Below, piece after piece: positions 18,743 through 26,530 of a stretch of DNA of 64,000 nt. The notes under the pieces are model-generated. The model was not told the DNA's origin. It was given only the letters and a program-made list of their open reading frames with translations, and ran no database searches. The position numbers were made by a program, and so were the translations under genes. The stretch comes from Halapricum salinum (lineage in GTDB: Archaea > Halobacteriota > Halobacteria > Halobacteriales > Haloarculaceae). Within the stretch, counting starts at the first letter, position 1, and each line of letters opens with the position of its first letter. The stretch spans positions 1,418,887-1,482,886 of the forward strand of contig NZ_CP031310.1 of NCBI RefSeq assembly GCF_004799665.1, written 5' to 3'.

Positions 18743-19147
18743 TCAGCACTCGATACGATCGTTCGGATCGTCGCTCGCGTCGACGAACGAACGGACGAGC
18801 TGTCGCTCGACGGCGCTGAGTCGCTGTGAAATCGCCGACTTCGACCGGTCGAACTCCGCCGCGATGTCGGCGAGGTGAGCGCGCCGCGGATCGTCGTAGT
18901 ACCCGCACGCGACCGCGTATCTGGCGGTCGCCTGCTGTGCCGCGGTGACGCTGTCGACGGGGACGACGTGGGGGCCCGAATCCGTCCAACTGACGGCGTC
19001 GATCGAGACCGACGCGTCGTCCATCGAGCGCCCGAGAAACAGGAGCAACTCGCGGGCCGCGTCCGGGTCCGAAAACGAGAGCGTCAGCCGGATTCCGGAG
19101 TTGTCGCTCTCGCCGACCGTCGCTGCTGTCGTCTCGTGCTGTGACAC
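18743..19147 (-). CDS. Bat-type helix-turn-helix regulator (HTH_10)
   Basis: 134 aa from a GTG start. A short ligand or scaffold region is followed by a C-terminal HTH_10 domain: ATARYAVACGYYDDPRRAHLADIAAEFDRSKSAISQRLSAVERQ. It begins 3 bp after the TorD-like gene and is the last gene of the molybdoenzyme operon, suggesting feedback control of the sulfur locus. A second HTH_10 regulator stands at the other end (25871). Confidence 0.8.
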   Translation of the reverse strand: MSQHETTAATVGESDNSGIRLTLSFSDPDAARELLLFLGRSMDDASVSIDAVSWTDSGPHVVPVDSVTAAQQATARYAVACGYYDDPRRAHLADIAAEFDRSKSAISQRLSAVERQLVRSFVDASDDPNDRIEC

Positions 19148-19150
19148 GCC

Positions 19151-19780
19151 CTATCCCTCCGCGTGTGTCCGTGCCCGGTCAGCCATCCGCTCGATTCGTT
19201 CGTGATCGGGGCCGGAAACGTCGAGTTCCTCGCGTACCCGCTCGATCGTGGCCACCAGCTGCTCGACGCACCACCGCTGGAGCGGCGCAGCTGCCGCCGC
19301 CTCCTCGACGAGGACGGCGAACGCGTCGATCCAGTCCAGGTCCGCCTCGACGAACGCCCCGAGTTCGTCCCACTCGCCCGCCTCCGCCAGCAGACTCGCG
19401 TACTCGAGCTGGAGTGCGACGTGATCGGGCGGGTACGCCGCCGGTACTGTCGCGTCGATCGCCTCGTACCGCCGGGCCATAGCCGAGGCCGGCGGCCCGC
19501 CCATCAACCCGTTGCGGTCGCCGTACCACTCCTTGTACGGCGAGGCCGCCGGCGGCGCGAACGGCGTCGCGAACGCGCCGAACAGGGCCTCGTAGTCCTC
19601 GGTCAGGTCGCGTCCGGAGACGGACACTGGGCCATCCGGCTCGACGCCGACCCGTTCCAGCAACTCGACGAGCGTCTCCGGGTCGTGTTCGAGGGCGTCG
19701 CGGACCTCCCTGTCCGGGTGCCGGAGGCAGTTCGACAGGCCGACGAGCGCGTCCGACCACGCGACGGTTCGTTCGACCAT
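19151..19780 (-). CDS. TorD/DmsD-like molybdoenzyme maturation chaperone
   Basis: 209-aa mostly helical protein starting at the ATG at 19780, 2 bp after the membrane-subunit stop. It has the TorD-family core EDYEALFGAFATPFAPPAASPYKEWYGD and a helical C-terminus. Such chaperones bind the Tat signal of the catalytic subunit until the molybdenum cofactor is inserted. Position at the end of psrABC-like genes supports this. Confidence 0.85.
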   Translation of the reverse strand: MVERTVAWSDALVGLSNCLRHPDREVRDALEHDPETLVELLERVGVEPDGPVSVSGRDLTEDYEALFGAFATPFAPPAASPYKEWYGDRNGLMGGPPASAMARRYEAIDATVPAAYPPDHVALQLEYASLLAEAGEWDELGAFVEADLDWIDAFAVLVEEAAAAAPLQRWCVEQLVATIERVREELDVSGPDHERIERMADRARTHAEG

Positions 19781-19782
19781 GG

Positions 19783-20925
19783 TCACAGCCCCGGGACGCC
19801 GAGTGGCGTCTTGACGGCGGCCATCAGGATCACGTACCGCAGCAGGAACCCGCCGAGGAGCACGAGCGTGTACTTCAGTGCGTAGCCACCGGTCAGCAGT
19901 CGCCTGCCCCACGGCGTCTCGCCGACGTCGGTGAACTGGTGGAGCATCGTCACCGTGATCGAGAGCGCGACTGGCAAGCCGGTCCCAAGGATCAACACGC
20001 CGCCGACGAACTCCAGCCCGTACGTGTCGAACAGCGCTGTCTCGGTCACGTTCGCGGCGACATCGGACGAGCTGCCCAGGAACGACACCAGCAGTCCGAT
20101 CGCCACCAGTTCCACGACGATGATCGCGTCGTCGGTCAGACAGAACCGGTGGTTGGTCCGCGTCAGTGCGCCGCCGCTGGCGACCGTTCCCAGAAGCGCC
20201 GCGGAGATCCCCGTCGAGACGCCGCTCAGCAAGAAGATAAAGGGCAGGTACGTCCGATTCCACAGCGGCACGACCGAGATGTCGCTCAACAGCATCGCCG
20301 TGTACGCGATGAGCAGCAGTGAGAGCGCACCGCCGACGAGCCGGATCGCACCGTGGGCCCGGCTCGGGGGCCGCGTCTTGTCGGCGACGGTATCGAGCAA
20401 CCACACGATCCCGCTGTCTGTCGACCACGGTCCCAGGCTGTCGATCCGGCCCAGGATCTTCCGGGGGAACAGGCTCAGACCGGACTCGGTCGCGACGGCG
20501 CTGCCGAAGTGCAGCCACAGCGTCTCCAGCGCCGCGACGATCGTGAACAGCACGATCACCCACGTCCCGATGGTCAGCCACGAGCCGAAGTTGGTGAACA
20601 GCACCGGGAACGTGAGCGCGCGAAGCGGCGCACCCAGGTGTGACAGCAGGGCGACCCCGCCGACGGCGATCGAGAGGACGCTGAGCACCGAGCCCCAGCG
20701 GGCGGTCTCCGCACACGAGTAGCGGTGCTCCTCGTCGTCCGTCCTGGCGAGCAGGATCTTGCCGAGCCAGCTGTCCGTGTCCATCAGACTCTTCATCAGG
20801 CTCGCCCACGAGGAGGTCACGTACGCCCCGCCGGCGGTGCCACCGAGGAAGAGATACAGCGCGATGAACTCCGCCCAGTGGACGTGGGGCAACCAGAGCC
20901 ACTCGGAGCCACCTGTGACACTCAT
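19783..20925 (-). CDS. NrfD/PsrC-type membrane subunit of the molybdoenzyme
   Basis: 380 aa with 8-10 membrane helices, starting MSVTGGSEWLWLPHVHWAEF at the ATG at 20925. The family motif LFLGGTAGGAYVTSS lies in the first helix. It anchors the complex and takes electrons from menaquinol. An internal extramembrane stretch (DTDSWLGKILLARTDDEEH) and an acidic C-terminal half are typical of haloarchaea. It follows the Fe-S subunit by 2 bp. Confidence 0.9.
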   Translation of the reverse strand: MSVTGGSEWLWLPHVHWAEFIALYLFLGGTAGGAYVTSSWASLMKSLMDTDSWLGKILLARTDDEEHRYSCAETARWGSVLSVLSIAVGGVALLSHLGAPLRALTFPVLFTNFGSWLTIGTWVIVLFTIVAALETLWLHFGSAVATESGLSLFPRKILGRIDSLGPWSTDSGIVWLLDTVADKTRPPSRAHGAIRLVGGALSLLLIAYTAMLLSDISVVPLWNRTYLPFIFLLSGVSTGISAALLGTVASGGALTRTNHRFCLTDDAIIVVELVAIGLLVSFLGSSSDVAANVTETALFDTYGLEFVGGVLILGTGLPVALSITVTMLHQFTDVGETPWGRRLLTGGYALKYTLVLLGGFLLRYVILMAAVKTPLGVPGL

Positions 20926-20927
20926 GA

Positions 20928-21563
20928 TTAGTCCCCTGCGTGCTCGGGCGTGGCGGCGTGTTCGACCATGTCGAGGTTCTCCTCGCCCCGGAACGGCTCG
21001 ACGACGACTCGCCCGTCGTTGGACTGGAACCGCTCTGCCGCCGCCTGTGACGCCTCTTTGATGATCTCTCGCTGCGGTCCTGCCTTGATCGCGTCGCCGA
21101 CGCAGTCGGAGACGCAGTTGGGCTGGATGGGATCGTCCTGCTCGTTTTTCGACTCCGCGCCCGCGCCGCTGCCCGGCCCCTGATCGAGACACATGTTACA
21201 CTTCGACATCAGGCCGTTGTCGCCGTAGGTCGGCGCGCCGAACGGGCAGGCCCACCCGCAGTACTTGCAGCCGATACAGACGTCCTGGTCGACAGTCACG
21301 ATCCCGTCGGAGTCGCGCTTTTCGATCGCTTCCGTCGGGCACACCTCCGCACACGGGGCGTCGTGACAGTGCATACACGACATCGAGACCGGCACCTCGG
21401 CGACCTCGGGGTACTCGCCCTTCTCGTGGTGGGTGACGGTCCGCCAGTCGTCGGCGTCGGCGTCGCGGCCGTGGAACTGCTTGCACGAGATCGAGCACGC
21501 GTGACAGCCGATACACCGGTTCGGGTCGAAGTAGAAGACCCAGTGGTCTTCCTCGACTGCCAT
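20928..21563 (-). CDS. [4Fe-4S] electron-transfer subunit (PsrB/DmsB type)
   Basis: 211 aa carrying four cysteine clusters: CIGCHACSISCK, CMHCHDAPCAEVCP, CIGCKYCGWACP and CNMC...CVSDCVGDA. These hold the chain of [4Fe-4S] centres that passes electrons from the membrane subunit to the molybdenum site. No signal peptide is present; it is probably exported with the catalytic subunit. The start is 2 bp from the preceding gene's stop. Confidence 0.93.
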   Translation of the reverse strand: MAVEEDHWVFYFDPNRCIGCHACSISCKQFHGRDADADDWRTVTHHEKGEYPEVAEVPVSMSCMHCHDAPCAEVCPTEAIEKRDSDGIVTVDQDVCIGCKYCGWACPFGAPTYGDNGLMSKCNMCLDQGPGSGAGAESKNEQDDPIQPNCVSDCVGDAIKAGPQREIIKEASQAAAERFQSNDGRVVVEPFRGEENLDMVEHAATPEHAGD

Positions 21564-21565
21564 GG

Positions 21566-23887
21566 TCAGTCACCCCCCGCCGGGGCCACGTCGACCGCGA
21601 TGTGTCTGTCTACCTGTCCGGTGATCGGATCCATCTGCATGTCGTGAAGCATCATCGTGTTCATCCCGTCCGCCGATTTCTCGCGGGCGTCCTCGCCCGT
21701 AGTGATCGCCGAGGTCTGTCCGAACCCGTACTCGGCGGTGACGAAGCCGGGCCGGGCGCGCTGGGTGACGACGGCCATCAGTTCGCCGCTCCCGGTCTTC
21801 GATTCGATCGCGACCATGTCGCCGGTCTCGATGCCGCGCTCGGCGGCGTCCTCGGGGTTGAGATAGAGGTAGTTCCCCCGGTAGTCCTCCCCGCTGAGCC
21901 GGTTTCGCTTGGCGAACTGGTCCCGCAGGCGCTCGTGGGGCTGGTTGCTCCCGTGGGAGAAAAACACCGAGCGAACGTCAGTGAACTCCAGGGGGTACTC
22001 CTCGGTGGTCTCGTCGCCGTAGGTTCCGGGGGGGATCCACTCCGGAGCCGTGTCCATCCCGGCCTCCTCGGCGGCCTTCGCGAAGGAGTCGATCTGGTCG
22101 AGATCGAACCGGAAGGTGAAGCCGTCGTCGTCTCTCCACTGCTCGTAGTCGTACTCCTCGACGAGTTCGTAGTTCGTCTCCCCGCTGTCTAGCTCTTCGA
22201 GAGTCAGATCCAGCGTCGAGAGCTGGTCGTCGATGAACTCCTCGTGGGAGTCCCACTGCTGGAAGATCGTCCAGTCGTCGTTGCCCGTCTCCCCGGCCAT
22301 CGCGTCGGCGATCCCGGTCAGGATGTCGAAGTCCGGCAACGTGTTCCACTGGGGCTCGACGGCGGCCTTCGCGCCGGTGACCCACTTGTGGTTGGGGTAG
22401 GCGCTCCAGTTGCCGGTACCGAGCGTGTCTTTCTCCAGCTGGGTCGCCTCCGGCAGGACGACGTCCGCCCGCCGGGAGACGCCGTTCCAGTAGGCGTCGA
22501 TCGAGATGACCAGATCCATCGCCTCGACCGCCTCGATCCAGGCCTCTGCGTTACCGTCTTTCAGCGGATCGTCGTGGTGACAGACGATCCCGTTGACGTG
22601 ACCGTTCTCGACCATCTCGGGCACCAGGTTGTGCGCGATGCCCTCGATGTGACGGACCGGGTAGTCGCTGTACTCGTCGTACTTTTTGAGCGCCGGCTCC
22701 TTGTACTCGGCGCGGTTCGTGTAGTCCTGCTCGCAGACCTCGCCGAACGACGCCGTCGCGGGGTACTTCCAGAGACGCAGGCCGCCGGGCCGGTCGACGT
22801 TGCCGACCAGCCCGTTGAGCGCGGTGATGTTCTGGGTCGCCTTCCAGCCGTTGCCGGCCTGTGCGGTCCCCGTCCATACGGAGATGCCCGCCTGAGGGGC
22901 CGCCTCGGCGAACCCGCGTGCCACTCGCCGGATCTGGTCGGCGTCCAGACCCGTGATCTCGGCCGCCCGCTCGGGCGGCATCTCGGCGGCGGCCTCCCGG
23001 TAGGCCTCGAAGCCGTAGGTGTGGTTCTCGACGAAATCGGCGTCGTAGCGCTCCTCCTCGATGATGACGTTGGCCATCGCGAGCGCCAGCGCGCCGTCCG
23101 TCCGGGGTTCGATCGGCATCCACTCCTCGGACTTCTGGGCCGTGATCGTGTGCTGGGGATCGATCGTGACCAGCGTCGCGCCGTTGTTCTCGATCGCTTC
23201 GAGGACGCCCTTGGCCTCGAACTGCCCGGCGAAGGAGTTCAGGACGTTCCGGCCCCAGGCGATGATGTACTCGGAGTTCTGGTAGTCCGGGACCCGGTTG
23301 TTCGAGCCGACGCCCATCATCCCGCCGGTGACGAAGGTGGGGCCGGCACAGACGTGGATCCCGCGGCTGATCCGCTCGGGCGAGCCGTAGAGGTCCCGCC
23401 AGATCGTCCGGAAGATCGACGTCTCGGCCCAGCTGGTGGCGTCGAGGAACGTCTCCGCGCCGTTGTTCTCGTCGAACTCGACCAGCCGCTCGGCGGTGTA
23501 CTGGAACGCCTCGTCCCAGCTCACTTTCTGTAGGTTCCCGTCCTCGTCTCGGATATGGGGTTCCTTGATCCGTTTCGGATCGTGGGTCTTGTCCAGCTGG
23601 GCCAATCCTTTCGGACAGAGCGTCCCCTCGGTGTCCGGCCCGGCACTCCCACGCGGGTGGCCGTCGACGCCCGTGAGATTGACGACGGTTCCGTCCCGGA
23701 CGGAGGCTTTCTGCCCGCAGTTGTGGCTGCACATCCAGCAGTTGCCGAAGGCCGTCGAGAGCTCTCCGGACGGTGAGTCGTCCGTCCCGTCCCCGGTGAG
23801 ACAGCCACCGAGTGCGGCCGCTCCGGCAGCCGACCCGGCCGTCTTCAGCAGGTTTCGGCGGGTGAGCGTCCCGACGCGCTCACTCAT
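21566..23887 (-). CDS. Molybdopterin oxidoreductase catalytic subunit (polysulfide/thiosulfate-reductase-like)
   Basis: 773 aa from the ATG at 23887 (a GTG at 23896 is also in frame). The Tat signal LTRRNLLKTAG ends in a lipobox-like LGGC. The [4Fe-4S] site is C50-x2-C53-x3-C57-x33-C91. The residue at the molybdenum-ligand position is cysteine (C180 in GIHVCAGPT), as in PsrA/PhsA/ArrA, not the serine of DmsA. It would reduce an external sulfur compound, probably polysulfide or thiosulfate, on the outer cell face. Arsenate or tetrathionate cannot be excluded. It heads an operon with the Fe-S, membrane and chaperone genes. Confidence 0.88.
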   Translation of the reverse strand: MSERVGTLTRRNLLKTAGSAAGAAALGGCLTGDGTDDSPSGELSTAFGNCWMCSHNCGQKASVRDGTVVNLTGVDGHPRGSAGPDTEGTLCPKGLAQLDKTHDPKRIKEPHIRDEDGNLQKVSWDEAFQYTAERLVEFDENNGAETFLDATSWAETSIFRTIWRDLYGSPERISRGIHVCAGPTFVTGGMMGVGSNNRVPDYQNSEYIIAWGRNVLNSFAGQFEAKGVLEAIENNGATLVTIDPQHTITAQKSEEWMPIEPRTDGALALAMANVIIEEERYDADFVENHTYGFEAYREAAAEMPPERAAEITGLDADQIRRVARGFAEAAPQAGISVWTGTAQAGNGWKATQNITALNGLVGNVDRPGGLRLWKYPATASFGEVCEQDYTNRAEYKEPALKKYDEYSDYPVRHIEGIAHNLVPEMVENGHVNGIVCHHDDPLKDGNAEAWIEAVEAMDLVISIDAYWNGVSRRADVVLPEATQLEKDTLGTGNWSAYPNHKWVTGAKAAVEPQWNTLPDFDILTGIADAMAGETGNDDWTIFQQWDSHEEFIDDQLSTLDLTLEELDSGETNYELVEEYDYEQWRDDDGFTFRFDLDQIDSFAKAAEEAGMDTAPEWIPPGTYGDETTEEYPLEFTDVRSVFFSHGSNQPHERLRDQFAKRNRLSGEDYRGNYLYLNPEDAAERGIETGDMVAIESKTGSGELMAVVTQRARPGFVTAEYGFGQTSAITTGEDAREKSADGMNTMMLHDMQMDPITGQVDRHIAVDVAPAGGD

Positions 23888-23984
23888 CGGGACCACTCCA
23901 GAACACGCCGAGCGGGCTCGGTCGAGTACCGTACTCCTCGCACCGTTCGAAGTCCGCTGTCGATATCTGCGTCGCCACGATCAT
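23880..23984 (-). CDS. Possible 34-residue leader ORF overlapping the molybdoenzyme start
   Basis: A frame starting ATG at 23984 (MIVATQISTADFERCEEYGT...) ends with TGA at 23880-23882, overlapping the catalytic gene's first codons. Its own ATG overlaps the stop of an even shorter frame (MGES, ATG at 23995). The chain suggests translational coupling or a leader-peptide control. Coding evidence is only positional. Confidence 0.3.
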   Translation of the reverse strand: MIVATQISTADFERCEEYGTRPSPLGVFWSGPDE

Positions 23985-23994
23985 GACTCTCCCA

Positions 23995-24056
23995 TACCTC
24001 TAGAGAGGACTCGGACCGGCAAAGCCCACACTCGGTATTAATTAAGCCTTTATATA
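23995..24056 (-). promoter_or_regulatory. Promoter and leader of the molybdoenzyme operon (copy 1 of a shared element)
   Basis: On the minus strand a TATATAAA box (24049-24056) is followed by GGCTTAATTAATACC. A leader then ends in CTCTAGAGGTATGG, whose ATG is at 23995. The same layout, with identical 54-bp spacing and much shared sequence, precedes the rhodanese gene at 25756. Both are therefore likely recognised by the same regulator. Confidence 0.65.
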
Positions 24057-24152
24057 CCCCAGGTCGGGGACGCCACACAGTCTTGTTTGATAAATCCAAG
24101 AATAAACAATAACACTTTGTACCGTGCGATGCAAGTTCGGCCGTGGGACAAC

Positions 24153-24413
24153 ATGGCAACTGAACCGTCAAATTCGCTCGACACGCTGGTAGGTGTCGCA
24201 GAAGGCGAAGAAGACCTCACCAAAGAGGAGTTCGAACGGATCGTCGACTCGATGGAGACGCGAAAGAAGTACAGCGTCGCGTCGTACAACATGCTCTGCA
24301 CGTCGGCGGATGTGGTAGTCGTCTGTGACATGGACACCCAGGAGTTCATCCAGATCGAGATTCCACGGGACGCAGCGCCCGAGGACGACGTTATCGTGAC
24401 GCGGGACGTCTGA
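24153..24413 (+). CDS. Small acidic protein of unknown function
   Basis: 86 aa from the ATG at 24153; in-frame ATGs at 24087 and 24129 are alternatives, and an AATAAAC box about 27 bp before 24129 favours that one if leaderless. Features are LTKEEFERIVDSMETRKKYSVASYNMLCTSADVVVVCDMDTQEFI, a compact alpha-beta fold. It is the only plus-strand gene inside the minus-strand sulfur locus and is divergent from the molybdoenzyme operon. No family recognised. Confidence 0.62.
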   Translation: MATEPSNSLDTLVGVAEGEEDLTKEEFERIVDSMETRKKYSVASYNMLCTSADVVVVCDMDTQEFIQIEIPRDAAPEDDVIVTRDV

Positions 24414-24490
24414 TCGCTACCGATAGCGCGCCTCGCGAAAGAACAGTTCTTTCGATCGCCGTCGTGACGCGATTTCGTTCGACGCCGAAT

Positions 24491-25756
24491 CTACGACCCG
24501 CAACCGAATCCGCCACCGCCGGTGTCGGCACCCATGTACTCGATGTCGTTTTTCTTGACCTGATTCGCGTCGAGCTGTGCGAGCTCGGTCAGTTCCTCGT
24601 TGAGCTCCGGATCGATCGAGACCTGCTCGGTCGCCGTGATCTCGCCTTCGGTCCGGCCCTCGATATCCGTTCGCCAGGTGTCGTTCGGCACCGGGTCCTG
24701 CTCGCCGTTGTACTGCTTCCACTGGAACTTCCAGGACCCGTCGTAGAGCGCGACGTCGTCGTACCCGAGGATGCCATCGAGCGCGAAGAACGCGAGCGTC
24801 CCCTTGAAGCCGCTGTGACACAGCGTGACGATCTGATCGCCGTCTTCGACGTCGTCGTAGCCGAAGACGTGGTCCTCGATCTCGCCGGCGGACTTCCACG
24901 GGACGGATTCGGTGAACATCCCGTCCGTGTAGCTCGCCGGCGGGTCGAGGACGCTGCCCGCGATCTTCGCGTCCTGGTCCGGGCCGCGAAGGTCGAGGAT
25001 CGACGCGTCGCTCTCGCCGGCGTTCCTGGCGTCGACCAGCTGGATCATCTCGTTGAGGCCCTTCCGCAGCTCGTAGTTGGGCGTCTCGAAGTCCTCGACG
25101 GGATAGTTGCTCTCGGGGACCTCGGGCGTCTCGTAGACCAGCTTGTCCGCCTCCTCGTAGGCGGTCGGACCACCGTCCAGCACTTTCACCCGTTCGCGGG
25201 GGAAGCCCCAGTACCGGAGCGTCCAGTACGCCCGGGCGTTGTACATCGGAATGTCCCCGGAGAGCACGACCACAGTGTTCGGACCGACGCCCGCGCTCTG
25301 GATGACCTCGTCGATGACCGACCCGGACGGGACGAGCTTCTGGGCTTCGCCGAGGCCGTCGACGCGAGTCTCCGTGAGCGTGGCCGGCCCCTCGCTGTCC
25401 TCGGTAGACCACTTGACTGCACCGGGGACGTGCCCGCCATCGTAGTTGCTCGCGTCGACTCTGAGCACGACGGCGCGATCCTCGTAGACGTCGTCCGTGT
25501 TGACGATCCCGGCGTCCACCCACTCCTTCAGGGTCGCGGGCTGGATCAGCGCGCTCTCGGTGTCGGTCGGATCGGGTCGGTCGAGCGACGGTTCGGTCGT
25601 CTGTTGCGGTTCGGTCGTGGTCGTCGACGTCGTCGTGGTGTCCTGTGGGTCGGTGGTCGCGTCGCCATCGCCGCCGCCACCACAGCCAGCGATCGCGGCG
25701 ACACCTGCAGCACTGGACAGCGCGAGGAACTTTCGACGGTCGAGCGTTCGTTCCAT
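24491..25756 (-). CDS. Secreted rhodanese-type sulfurtransferase (Tat lipoprotein) with Gly-Cys tail
   Basis: 421 aa. The Tat signal LDRRKFLALS ends in lipobox AIAGC (C25) and is followed by a Thr-rich linker. Two rhodanese domains follow; the second has the active-site loop LCHSGFKG with the catalytic Cys near residue 313. The protein ends in GGGGFGCGS, a flexible glycine tail with a lone cysteine. It would move sulfane sulfur outside the membrane, perhaps to or from the PsrA-like enzyme encoded next. Its promoter is nearly duplicated from that operon. Confidence 0.9.
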   Translation of the reverse strand: MERTLDRRKFLALSSAAGVAAIAGCGGGGDGDATTDPQDTTTTSTTTTEPQQTTEPSLDRPDPTDTESALIQPATLKEWVDAGIVNTDDVYEDRAVVLRVDASNYDGGHVPGAVKWSTEDSEGPATLTETRVDGLGEAQKLVPSGSVIDEVIQSAGVGPNTVVVLSGDIPMYNARAYWTLRYWGFPRERVKVLDGGPTAYEEADKLVYETPEVPESNYPVEDFETPNYELRKGLNEMIQLVDARNAGESDASILDLRGPDQDAKIAGSVLDPPASYTDGMFTESVPWKSAGEIEDHVFGYDDVEDGDQIVTLCHSGFKGTLAFFALDGILGYDDVALYDGSWKFQWKQYNGEQDPVPNDTWRTDIEGRTEGEITATEQVSIDPELNEELTELAQLDANQVKKNDIEYMGADTGGGGFGCGS

Positions 25757-25817
25757 ACCTGTAGAGAACGGCTCGGACGGGATTGACCTACCTCTGGATA
25801 AATTCAGGCTTTATATA
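25756..25817 (-). promoter_or_regulatory. Promoter and leader of the rhodanese gene (copy 2 of a shared element)
   Basis: The minus-strand TATATAAA box (25810-25817) followed by GCCTGAATTTATCC, and a leader containing GTCCGAG and CTCTACAGGTATGG, match the element before the molybdoenzyme operon. Box-to-ATG distance is 54 bp in both. The predicted 5' leader is about 30 nt. Confidence 0.65.
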
Positions 25818-25870: not shown

Positions 25871-26530
25871 TCACTCGACGTTGTCCCAGCAATCACACTC
25901 GACAGAAAGCTGCCGGAGGACGTTCCCTTCCGCCCGTCGGAGACGCTGTGACAGCGCCGAGGTGGAGATACCGATCCGATCGGCCAGTTCGGCCAGCGAC
26001 ACGTCGGCGTCCGGGTCGTAATACCCCATCTCCTGGGCATGATAGACGGCCTCGCGCTGCTTTCGGGTGAGCGCGGAGATATCGACCGAGCAGTCCTCGT
26101 TGAACTCCGACCGCTCTGTCGAGACGATACTCTTGAGTGATACGTTGTCACAGATCGACTGGATATCGCTCACGAGATCGGCGACAGCCTGGGTGTCGGC
26201 GACGTAGGTCTCGACGACGAACGATCCCTCGTTGATCTCCCTGTAGCGCGGGAGACAGCCGTGTTTGCTGAACACCTTTCCGGGGCAGTGTTCACAGAGG
26301 TGGTTTTCGAAGTACTGGGTCGCGATCCCTTCGTCCGCTGGATCGCGCACCACTGCGTCGACGTTACAGGCCTCCTCGTCGAGGCGCACGTCGATCCCGA
26401 TGACCTCACCGTCCATGTGGTCTAGCCGGCAAGGGCCGCCGCGCTCGATCTCCATGACGACCCGCATCTCCCGGTCTTCGACTGGCGGGTCTATCTGAGC
26501 GTTTTCCTTCCCGATCCGGTTGAGCGCCAT
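25871..26530 (-). CDS. Bat/DmsR-like regulator with Cys-rich sensor region
   Basis: 219 aa from the ATG at 26530 (an ATG at 26467 would start at MRVVMEIE). The N-terminal half carries several cysteines ([28 protein letters not shown]) that could hold a metal or Fe-S cluster. The C-terminal HTH_10 reads [39 protein letters not shown]. Similar haloarchaeal proteins control DMSO reductase operons. It lies just upstream of the rhodanese gene, so it is the leading candidate for the shared promoter element. A TATTTGA box about 27 bp before the start suggests a leaderless mRNA. Confidence 0.82.

Follow-up and report, generated by a model that had tools for sequence, protein, structure and literature searches.

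The analyzed window is a 64,000-nt stretch (1418887–1482886) of the 3.45-Mb genome of the haloarchaeon Halapricum salinum, in which the minus strand carries, in this order, genes for an HTH_10 regulator, a rhodanese, PsrA, PsrB, PsrC (NrfD), PsrD (TorD-like), and a short HTH_10 protein. The first of these (25871..26530) encodes a DmsR-type regulator of 219 aa, referred to here as PsrR, whose C-terminal HTH_10 domain scored 65.7 bits in Pfam (cut-off: 23.1) and whose DmsR_N match scored 31.5 bits (cut-off: 27) while covering only profile positions 79–141 of 143. The rhodanese-like protein (24491..25756; 421 aa) has a Tat-type lipoprotein signal and is ExtH-like, with 227.3 bits against NF040901 (above the cut-off of 200), a match to PF00581, and rhodanese relatives in the PDB. 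Between this gene and psrA, an 86-aa gene lies on the (+) strand (24153–24413); it occupies the same place in three congeners (85–88% identity), and its product had no match in the Pfam search. In another genome, G396, the rhodanese consists of two tandem copies within a single 812-aa reading frame (L067:8467–10722).

The psr genes comprise psrA (21566..23887; molybdopterin catalytic subunit with a Tat signal, by Pfam and PDB), psrB (20928..21563; 4Fe-4S ferredoxin subunit, by domain searches), psrC (19783..20925; NrfD-type membrane anchor, PF03916 at 71.2 bits), and psrD (19151..19780; TorD/NarJ-like chaperone, PF02613 at 48.8 bits), and the operon ends with the second, short HTH_10 regulator (18743..19147; HTH_10 at 49.4 bits). 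All the expected members of a PsrABC system are thus present, namely the molybdopterin subunit, the 4Fe-4S subunit, the NrfD anchor, and the chaperone. The top PDB match of PsrA by E-value is 2vpw (E = 2.3e-47), which is filed as a thiosulfate reductase, and its top-scoring NCBIfam model is PhsA, at 280.8 bits far below the cut-off of 694. We regard psr as a putative polysulfide reductase, polysulfide being the presumed substrate in preference to thiosulfate or other compounds.

The initial annotation took the ATG at 23995 as the start of the molybdoenzyme, but this codon opens a 4-codon ORF (MGES*; 23981..23995, minus strand, from the ORF listing), and the true psrA start is at 23887, behind a small overlapping ORF. 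The latter is a 34-codon leader ORF (23880..23984, minus strand; ORF listing and congener comparison) that overlaps the psrA start by 8 nt. In 23 of the 26 loci with a recognized psrA start (two more loci are without one), a small ORF extends 4 or 8 nt into psrA, and in G176 and the metagenome-assembled genome (MAG) locus L049 it matches Ferredoxin_N. In the genus of the window, the leader ORF is exactly 34 codons long in four species, with no third-codon-position bias among the substitutions between them. Because the length is kept without such a bias, the leader ORF appears to serve translational coupling rather than to encode a selected peptide.

Two copies of a 38-bp element are present on the minus strand, copy A in the rhodanese promoter (25780..25817; model R1, E = 5.1e-6 in its own genome) and copy B in the psr promoter (24019..24056; E = 2.3e-6). 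Both copies are composed of a TATA box (positions 1–8), a conserved core (positions 9–26), and a start-site region (positions 27–38). The same box had been proposed to lie at both promoters, and this was borne out, with TATATAAAGCCTGAATTTATCC beginning at 25817 and TATATAAAGGCTTAATTAATAC at 24056. In a pairwise alignment and a motif search, both suggested with the proposal, the two regions are identical at 37 of 59 ungapped positions, compared with 30/59 and 29/59 for the runner-up 59-mers within the window, and the pattern TATATAAAGNCTNAATNNATNC, allowing two or fewer mismatches, occurs at only two sites in the entire 3.45 Mb, copies A and B, while the reversed-pattern control at the same tolerance had 0 matches in the whole genome. 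Within positions 9–26, 13 of 18 bases are identical versus 4.6 expected (0 of 5,000 shuffles).

From the start of the box, the ATG considered is 61 nt away at both promoters, the rhodanese ATG included, so the equal spacing noted in the initial annotation holds, but its figure of 54 applies only if the box is taken to end after TATATAA (52 after a 9-nt box). The two leaders of this genome both contain GTCCGAG, offset by one base, but the motif is absent from the orthologous leaders of three congeners, and CTCTA-AGGTATGG is present here at the start codon, but the block varies in orthologs. In this genome, leader positions 39–61 match at 13 of 23 (p = 0.0028), and no sequence 5′ of the TATA box is shared between the two promoters, either here or in an alignment of 13 loci. 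At its core, the observation is real and goes further than first noticed; the two promoters share the TATA box and ~18 bp after it.

Close relatives of the rhodanese (E ≤ 1e-25) were found in 14 of 391 Halobacteria genomes, and the loci of all 14, together with two MAG loci, formed a set of 16. A search of genome contigs yielded three loci, from which L051 (a bacterial MAG) was left out; L050 and L109 (G470), judged by length and sites, are one 25,158-bp contig and were counted once. No rhodanese relative was found in the viral contigs searched. Each of the 16 rhodanese/psr loci carries the element at the rhodanese as well as the psr promoter. Specifically, a matrix built from 16 sites of two families (f1 and f2) recovered 29 of the 32 expected promoters at >12 bits in the 16 loci and nothing else. 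At >8 bits in the same loci, a matrix from 15 rhodanese sites gave 31 matches, including 16/16 psr sites, and a matrix from 14 psr sites gave 32 matches (16/16 rhodanese and 16/16 psr), with no match of either matrix outside these promoters. At the held-out loci of G474, G475, and G477, six of six sites were recovered with a 29-site matrix and five of six with the f1+f2 matrix.

In an alignment of 47 sites, most of the information lies at positions 3–8, 11–12, 14–15, 20, 24–26, and 35, with the TATA box evident at ~2 bits for each of positions 3–8, while a BRE (CGAAA) 5′ of the TATA box is absent (≤0.2 bit per position from −6 to −1). Across 13 loci, which are not independent of each other, the mean identity between the rhodanese and psr copies was 0.88 in the TATA box and 0.74 at positions 9–26 (null: 0.26), dropping to 0.40 at positions 27–38 and 0.41 in the leader (null: 0.26), and it was about at chance 5′ of the TATA box (0.22 and 0.31; null: 0.26 and 0.28). 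The likeness had been described as continuous from the promoter to the ATG and as a duplicated segment of that extent; neither description is supported, as only the TATA box and about 18–30 bp after it are conserved and the DNA further upstream is unrelated. We also considered the leader as part of the shared unit and rejected it, because orthologs conserve neither GTCCGAG nor CTCTA.

The rhodanese and psr copies of one genome are closer to each other than copies from different genera (positions 1–38, permutation p = 0.003, ten lineages). By the same kind of test, likeness within a genome is also in excess in the leader (p = 0.012), and there is no excess 5′ of the TATA box (p = 0.81). The correlation for single genomes is modest, with G371 as a discordant case at positions 9–26 (0.33). 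As we read the alignment, the weak leader likeness falls in part where psr has a ribosome-binding-like stretch and rhodanese has its start codon, an overlap that would account for it only partly. At 38 bp, the element is too short to decide between an origin by duplication and convergence on one binding site.

The specificity of the element was analyzed with a sequence-only model from 29 sites run on the 391 Halobacteria genomes. At E < 1e-3, it returned 34 sites in 23 genomes, spanning 13 genera and five families, and all 34 are psr or rhodanese promoters. Training sites had come from 14 of these genomes; in the other nine, a site was found immediately 5′ of psr in 9/9. The genomes encoding PsrA at E ≤ 1e-279 (≥57% identity) are precisely these 23 of the 391. 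Among more distant PsrA relatives (15 matches at 47–53% identity), 14 of 15 upstream regions score ≤8.2, and the one in G343 scores 28.0, near the weakest accepted sites, so the equality of 23 and 23 is valid at the stated cut-offs, with G343 as a weaker 24th case. In G343, the element (L187:1191/L211:3141) precedes the gene of a PsrA relative (49% identity), next to which a PsrR relative (36%) is encoded, and faint look-alikes of the element occur at other PsrA paralogs. The co-regulation of sulfur transfer and reduction suggested at the outset is hence strongly supported by a paired element found in five families of Halobacteria and confined to this pathway.

Between E = 1e-3 and 0.2, the 391 genomes contain nine weaker sites, of which two are known rhodanese/psr sites and one is the HTH_10 site of G396; those in G120, G053, and G190 had no recognizable relevant gene nearby, and the remaining three are in G438, G210, and G093. 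In a scan of 15 genomes at E ≤ 1, 26 of 29 matches are rhodanese/psr sites, the other three being in G396 (HTH_10), G371 (hydrogenase), and G433 (no recognizable relevant gene). The site in G371 (L114:5054–5091; 27.7 bits) is 205 nt upstream of the gene for a [NiFe]-hydrogenase small subunit and may represent a possible third target on the electron-donor side. In addition, three f4-type loci have a third element-like site, at L209:7256 on the (−) strand (G266), L210:1295 on the (+) strand (G304), and L049:1610 on the (+) strand (MAG), which precedes a divergent operon of a ~140-aa gene followed by a P-loop ATPase that, judging from its sequence, we take to be Mrp/ApbC-like. We treat these three sites as leads only.

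Of the 391 genomes, 19 encode a PsrR ortholog (E ≤ 1e-45), and all 19 are among the 23 that bear the element. The four element-bearing genomes without a close ortholog are G221 and G419, which have strong elements and only a 36–38% PsrR relative beside the rhodanese, and G304 and G266, which have 46% and 41% PsrR relatives about 5–6 kb from psr. In two genomes, PsrR is encoded well away from psr, with an element-like site downstream of its gene: in G396 (L113:4672–4709), the site is 27 nt past the stop codon and an HTH_10 gene comes next, and in G431 (L151:2150), it is 37 nt past the stop codon. Cysteines C34, C55, C79, and C82 are invariant among 22 PsrR sequences, and C92 is present in ≥90% of them. 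The AlphaFold model of PsrR has a mean pLDDT of 73.8, and its comparison with the PDB gave no informative fold match (best E = 1.1e-3; TM of about 0.2). Both HTH_10 regulators bracketing the locus had been named as candidates; PsrR (25871) appears the better one owing to its co-occurrence, its adjacency, and the relocated copies in G396 and G431, and the 18743 regulator the weaker, with its counterpart missing in several loci. Neighborhood and co-occurrence fit PsrR and any other factor of the same locus alike.

PsrR resembles DmsR/NarO/Bat-type proteins in having HTH_10 and DmsR_N-like domains and in adjoining a molybdoenzyme respiratory operon. In the accessible portions of the relevant reports, DmsR and NarO are regulators of DMSO and nitrate respiration (PMC11218638) and are described as activators (PMC11218638, PMC10062603), and the denitrification motif is given as CGAAYATDKTYG (PMC10062603, PMC11218638). 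This NarO-type motif was not found in the psr/rhodanese promoters, where the best matches had 2–4 mismatches (18 of the 49 listed sites checked, from 8 genomes), so the present system differs from the denitrification regulon, with a shared element that follows the TATA box. Haloarchaeal promoters usually carry a CGAAA-type BRE, according to the available text of PMC4983044. Promoters without a recognizable BRE would need help, as described for TFB-RF1, an activator of weak-BRE promoters (PMC5937170), but TFB-RF1 is a different kind of protein from PsrR, and recruitment of TFB by PsrR is not indicated by the present data.

Taken together, we consider it probable that PsrR reads an operator that switches the rhodanese and psrABCD promoters together. 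The shared sequence would serve both promoters as a dedicated operator, downstream of the TATA box and upstream of the transcription start, and PsrR, encoded just upstream (25871–26530), would be the candidate that binds it. The element, its position and pairing, its conservation across families, its restriction to one pathway, and its co-occurrence with PsrR can be read from the genomes; binding by PsrR is what we infer from them. Through its five conserved cysteines, PsrR would probably sense the redox or sulfur state and switch both transcripts, which would make the sulfur carrier available at the same time as the polysulfide reductase. Transcription would start near position 30–35 of the element, and if the start is indeed ~30–35 bp from the start of the box, the core sits between the TATA box and the start. 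A protein bound there can block or help polymerase, and a site in this position is more typical of archaeal repressors. The absent BRE fits a promoter in need of an activator, while the operator-like position fits a repressor as well; with no BRE consensus and a family whose members DmsR and NarO are described as activators, we lean slightly toward activation. The net effect would be induction without oxygen. Control of this anaerobic respiratory operon by PsrR is putative and is suggested by adjacency and co-occurrence.

That the element is instead bound by the HTH_10 protein at 18743–19147, or by both HTH_10 proteins in cooperation, is a reading we consider unlikely. The 18743 gene is inside the psr operon in the genus of the window, similar proteins follow psrD in many f3/f4 loci, and in G396 an HTH_10 gene of the 18743 type itself has an element-like site. 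Nevertheless, no separate match to the 18743 protein was found at the locus in G176, G259, G326, G266, and G304, and f2 loci have a 29% DmsR-type protein in its place, yet all of these keep the element. It is quite unlikely, too, that the element is a special core promoter (a TATA downstream flank with an initiator) served by an alternative TBP/TFB pair and no dedicated regulator: although its distance to the directly adjoining TATA box is fixed and the place of the BRE carries no information, general factors serve many genes, whereas all 34 strong matches are confined to one pathway, and the element tracks PsrR across genomes.

An element acting in RNA, as a leader that controls translation, would be in keeping with the small ORFs that run into psrA in 23 of 26 loci, but it is very improbable, since the core at positions 9–26 would lie upstream of the transcript given a normal TATA-to-start distance and a small ORF of this kind is missing from the rhodanese leader. 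The leader match in this genome and the equal spacing to the ATG would suit a mostly recent duplication of promoter and leader without regulatory meaning. Against this, the DNA 5′ of the TATA box is unrelated between the promoters, and both copies persist across families while the leader matches do not; this cross-family conservation already contradicts such an origin, which we hold to be extremely improbable.

The gene cluster to which the proposed operator belongs has already been published (PMC6176080). The Psr clusters with a rhodanese that Sorokin et al. (2017, 2018) described for sulfur-respiring haloarchaea have the same content (psrA–D, rhodanese, sulfurtransferases, and bacterioopsin-activator-family genes; PMC6176080), with no promoter element or regulator assignment in the accessible sections of those reports. 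In strain HTSR1, the rhodanese was called cotranscribed with psrA, whereas in the present genome the two have separate promoters, both with the element. According to the same accessible sections, PsrA and rhodanese are induced or abundant in sulfur-grown cells (PMC5437934), and Psr of strain AArc1 was seen only in anaerobic cultures with sulfur (PMC6176080), while the polysulfide reductases of Halodesulfurarchaeum were called constitutive (PMC5437934), a difference implying that the signal may vary by lineage.

Knowledge of haloarchaeal sulfur respiration comes from genomes and proteomes, and within the open-access literature available to us, a scope that takes in few subscription papers, we found no report of the element or of a haloarchaeal psr regulator. 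The element provides a handle: it names a candidate regulator, shows which bases to mutate, and is of use for the sequence-based prediction of sulfur respiration. More speculatively, and with considerable doubt on our part, HTH_10/DmsR-type regulators may generally act between the TATA box and the start in place of the BRE, each respiratory molybdoenzyme having its own co-diverged regulator–element pair, an idea prompted by hints from the G343 element and the faint look-alikes at PsrA paralogs. If such pairs exist, the psr element would belong to a whole family of elements. Should the site of action indeed lie between the TATA box and the start, the haloarchaeal HTH_10 family would gain an additional promoter layout. 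The paired element points to one dedicated on/off switch for the genes of sulfur respiration.
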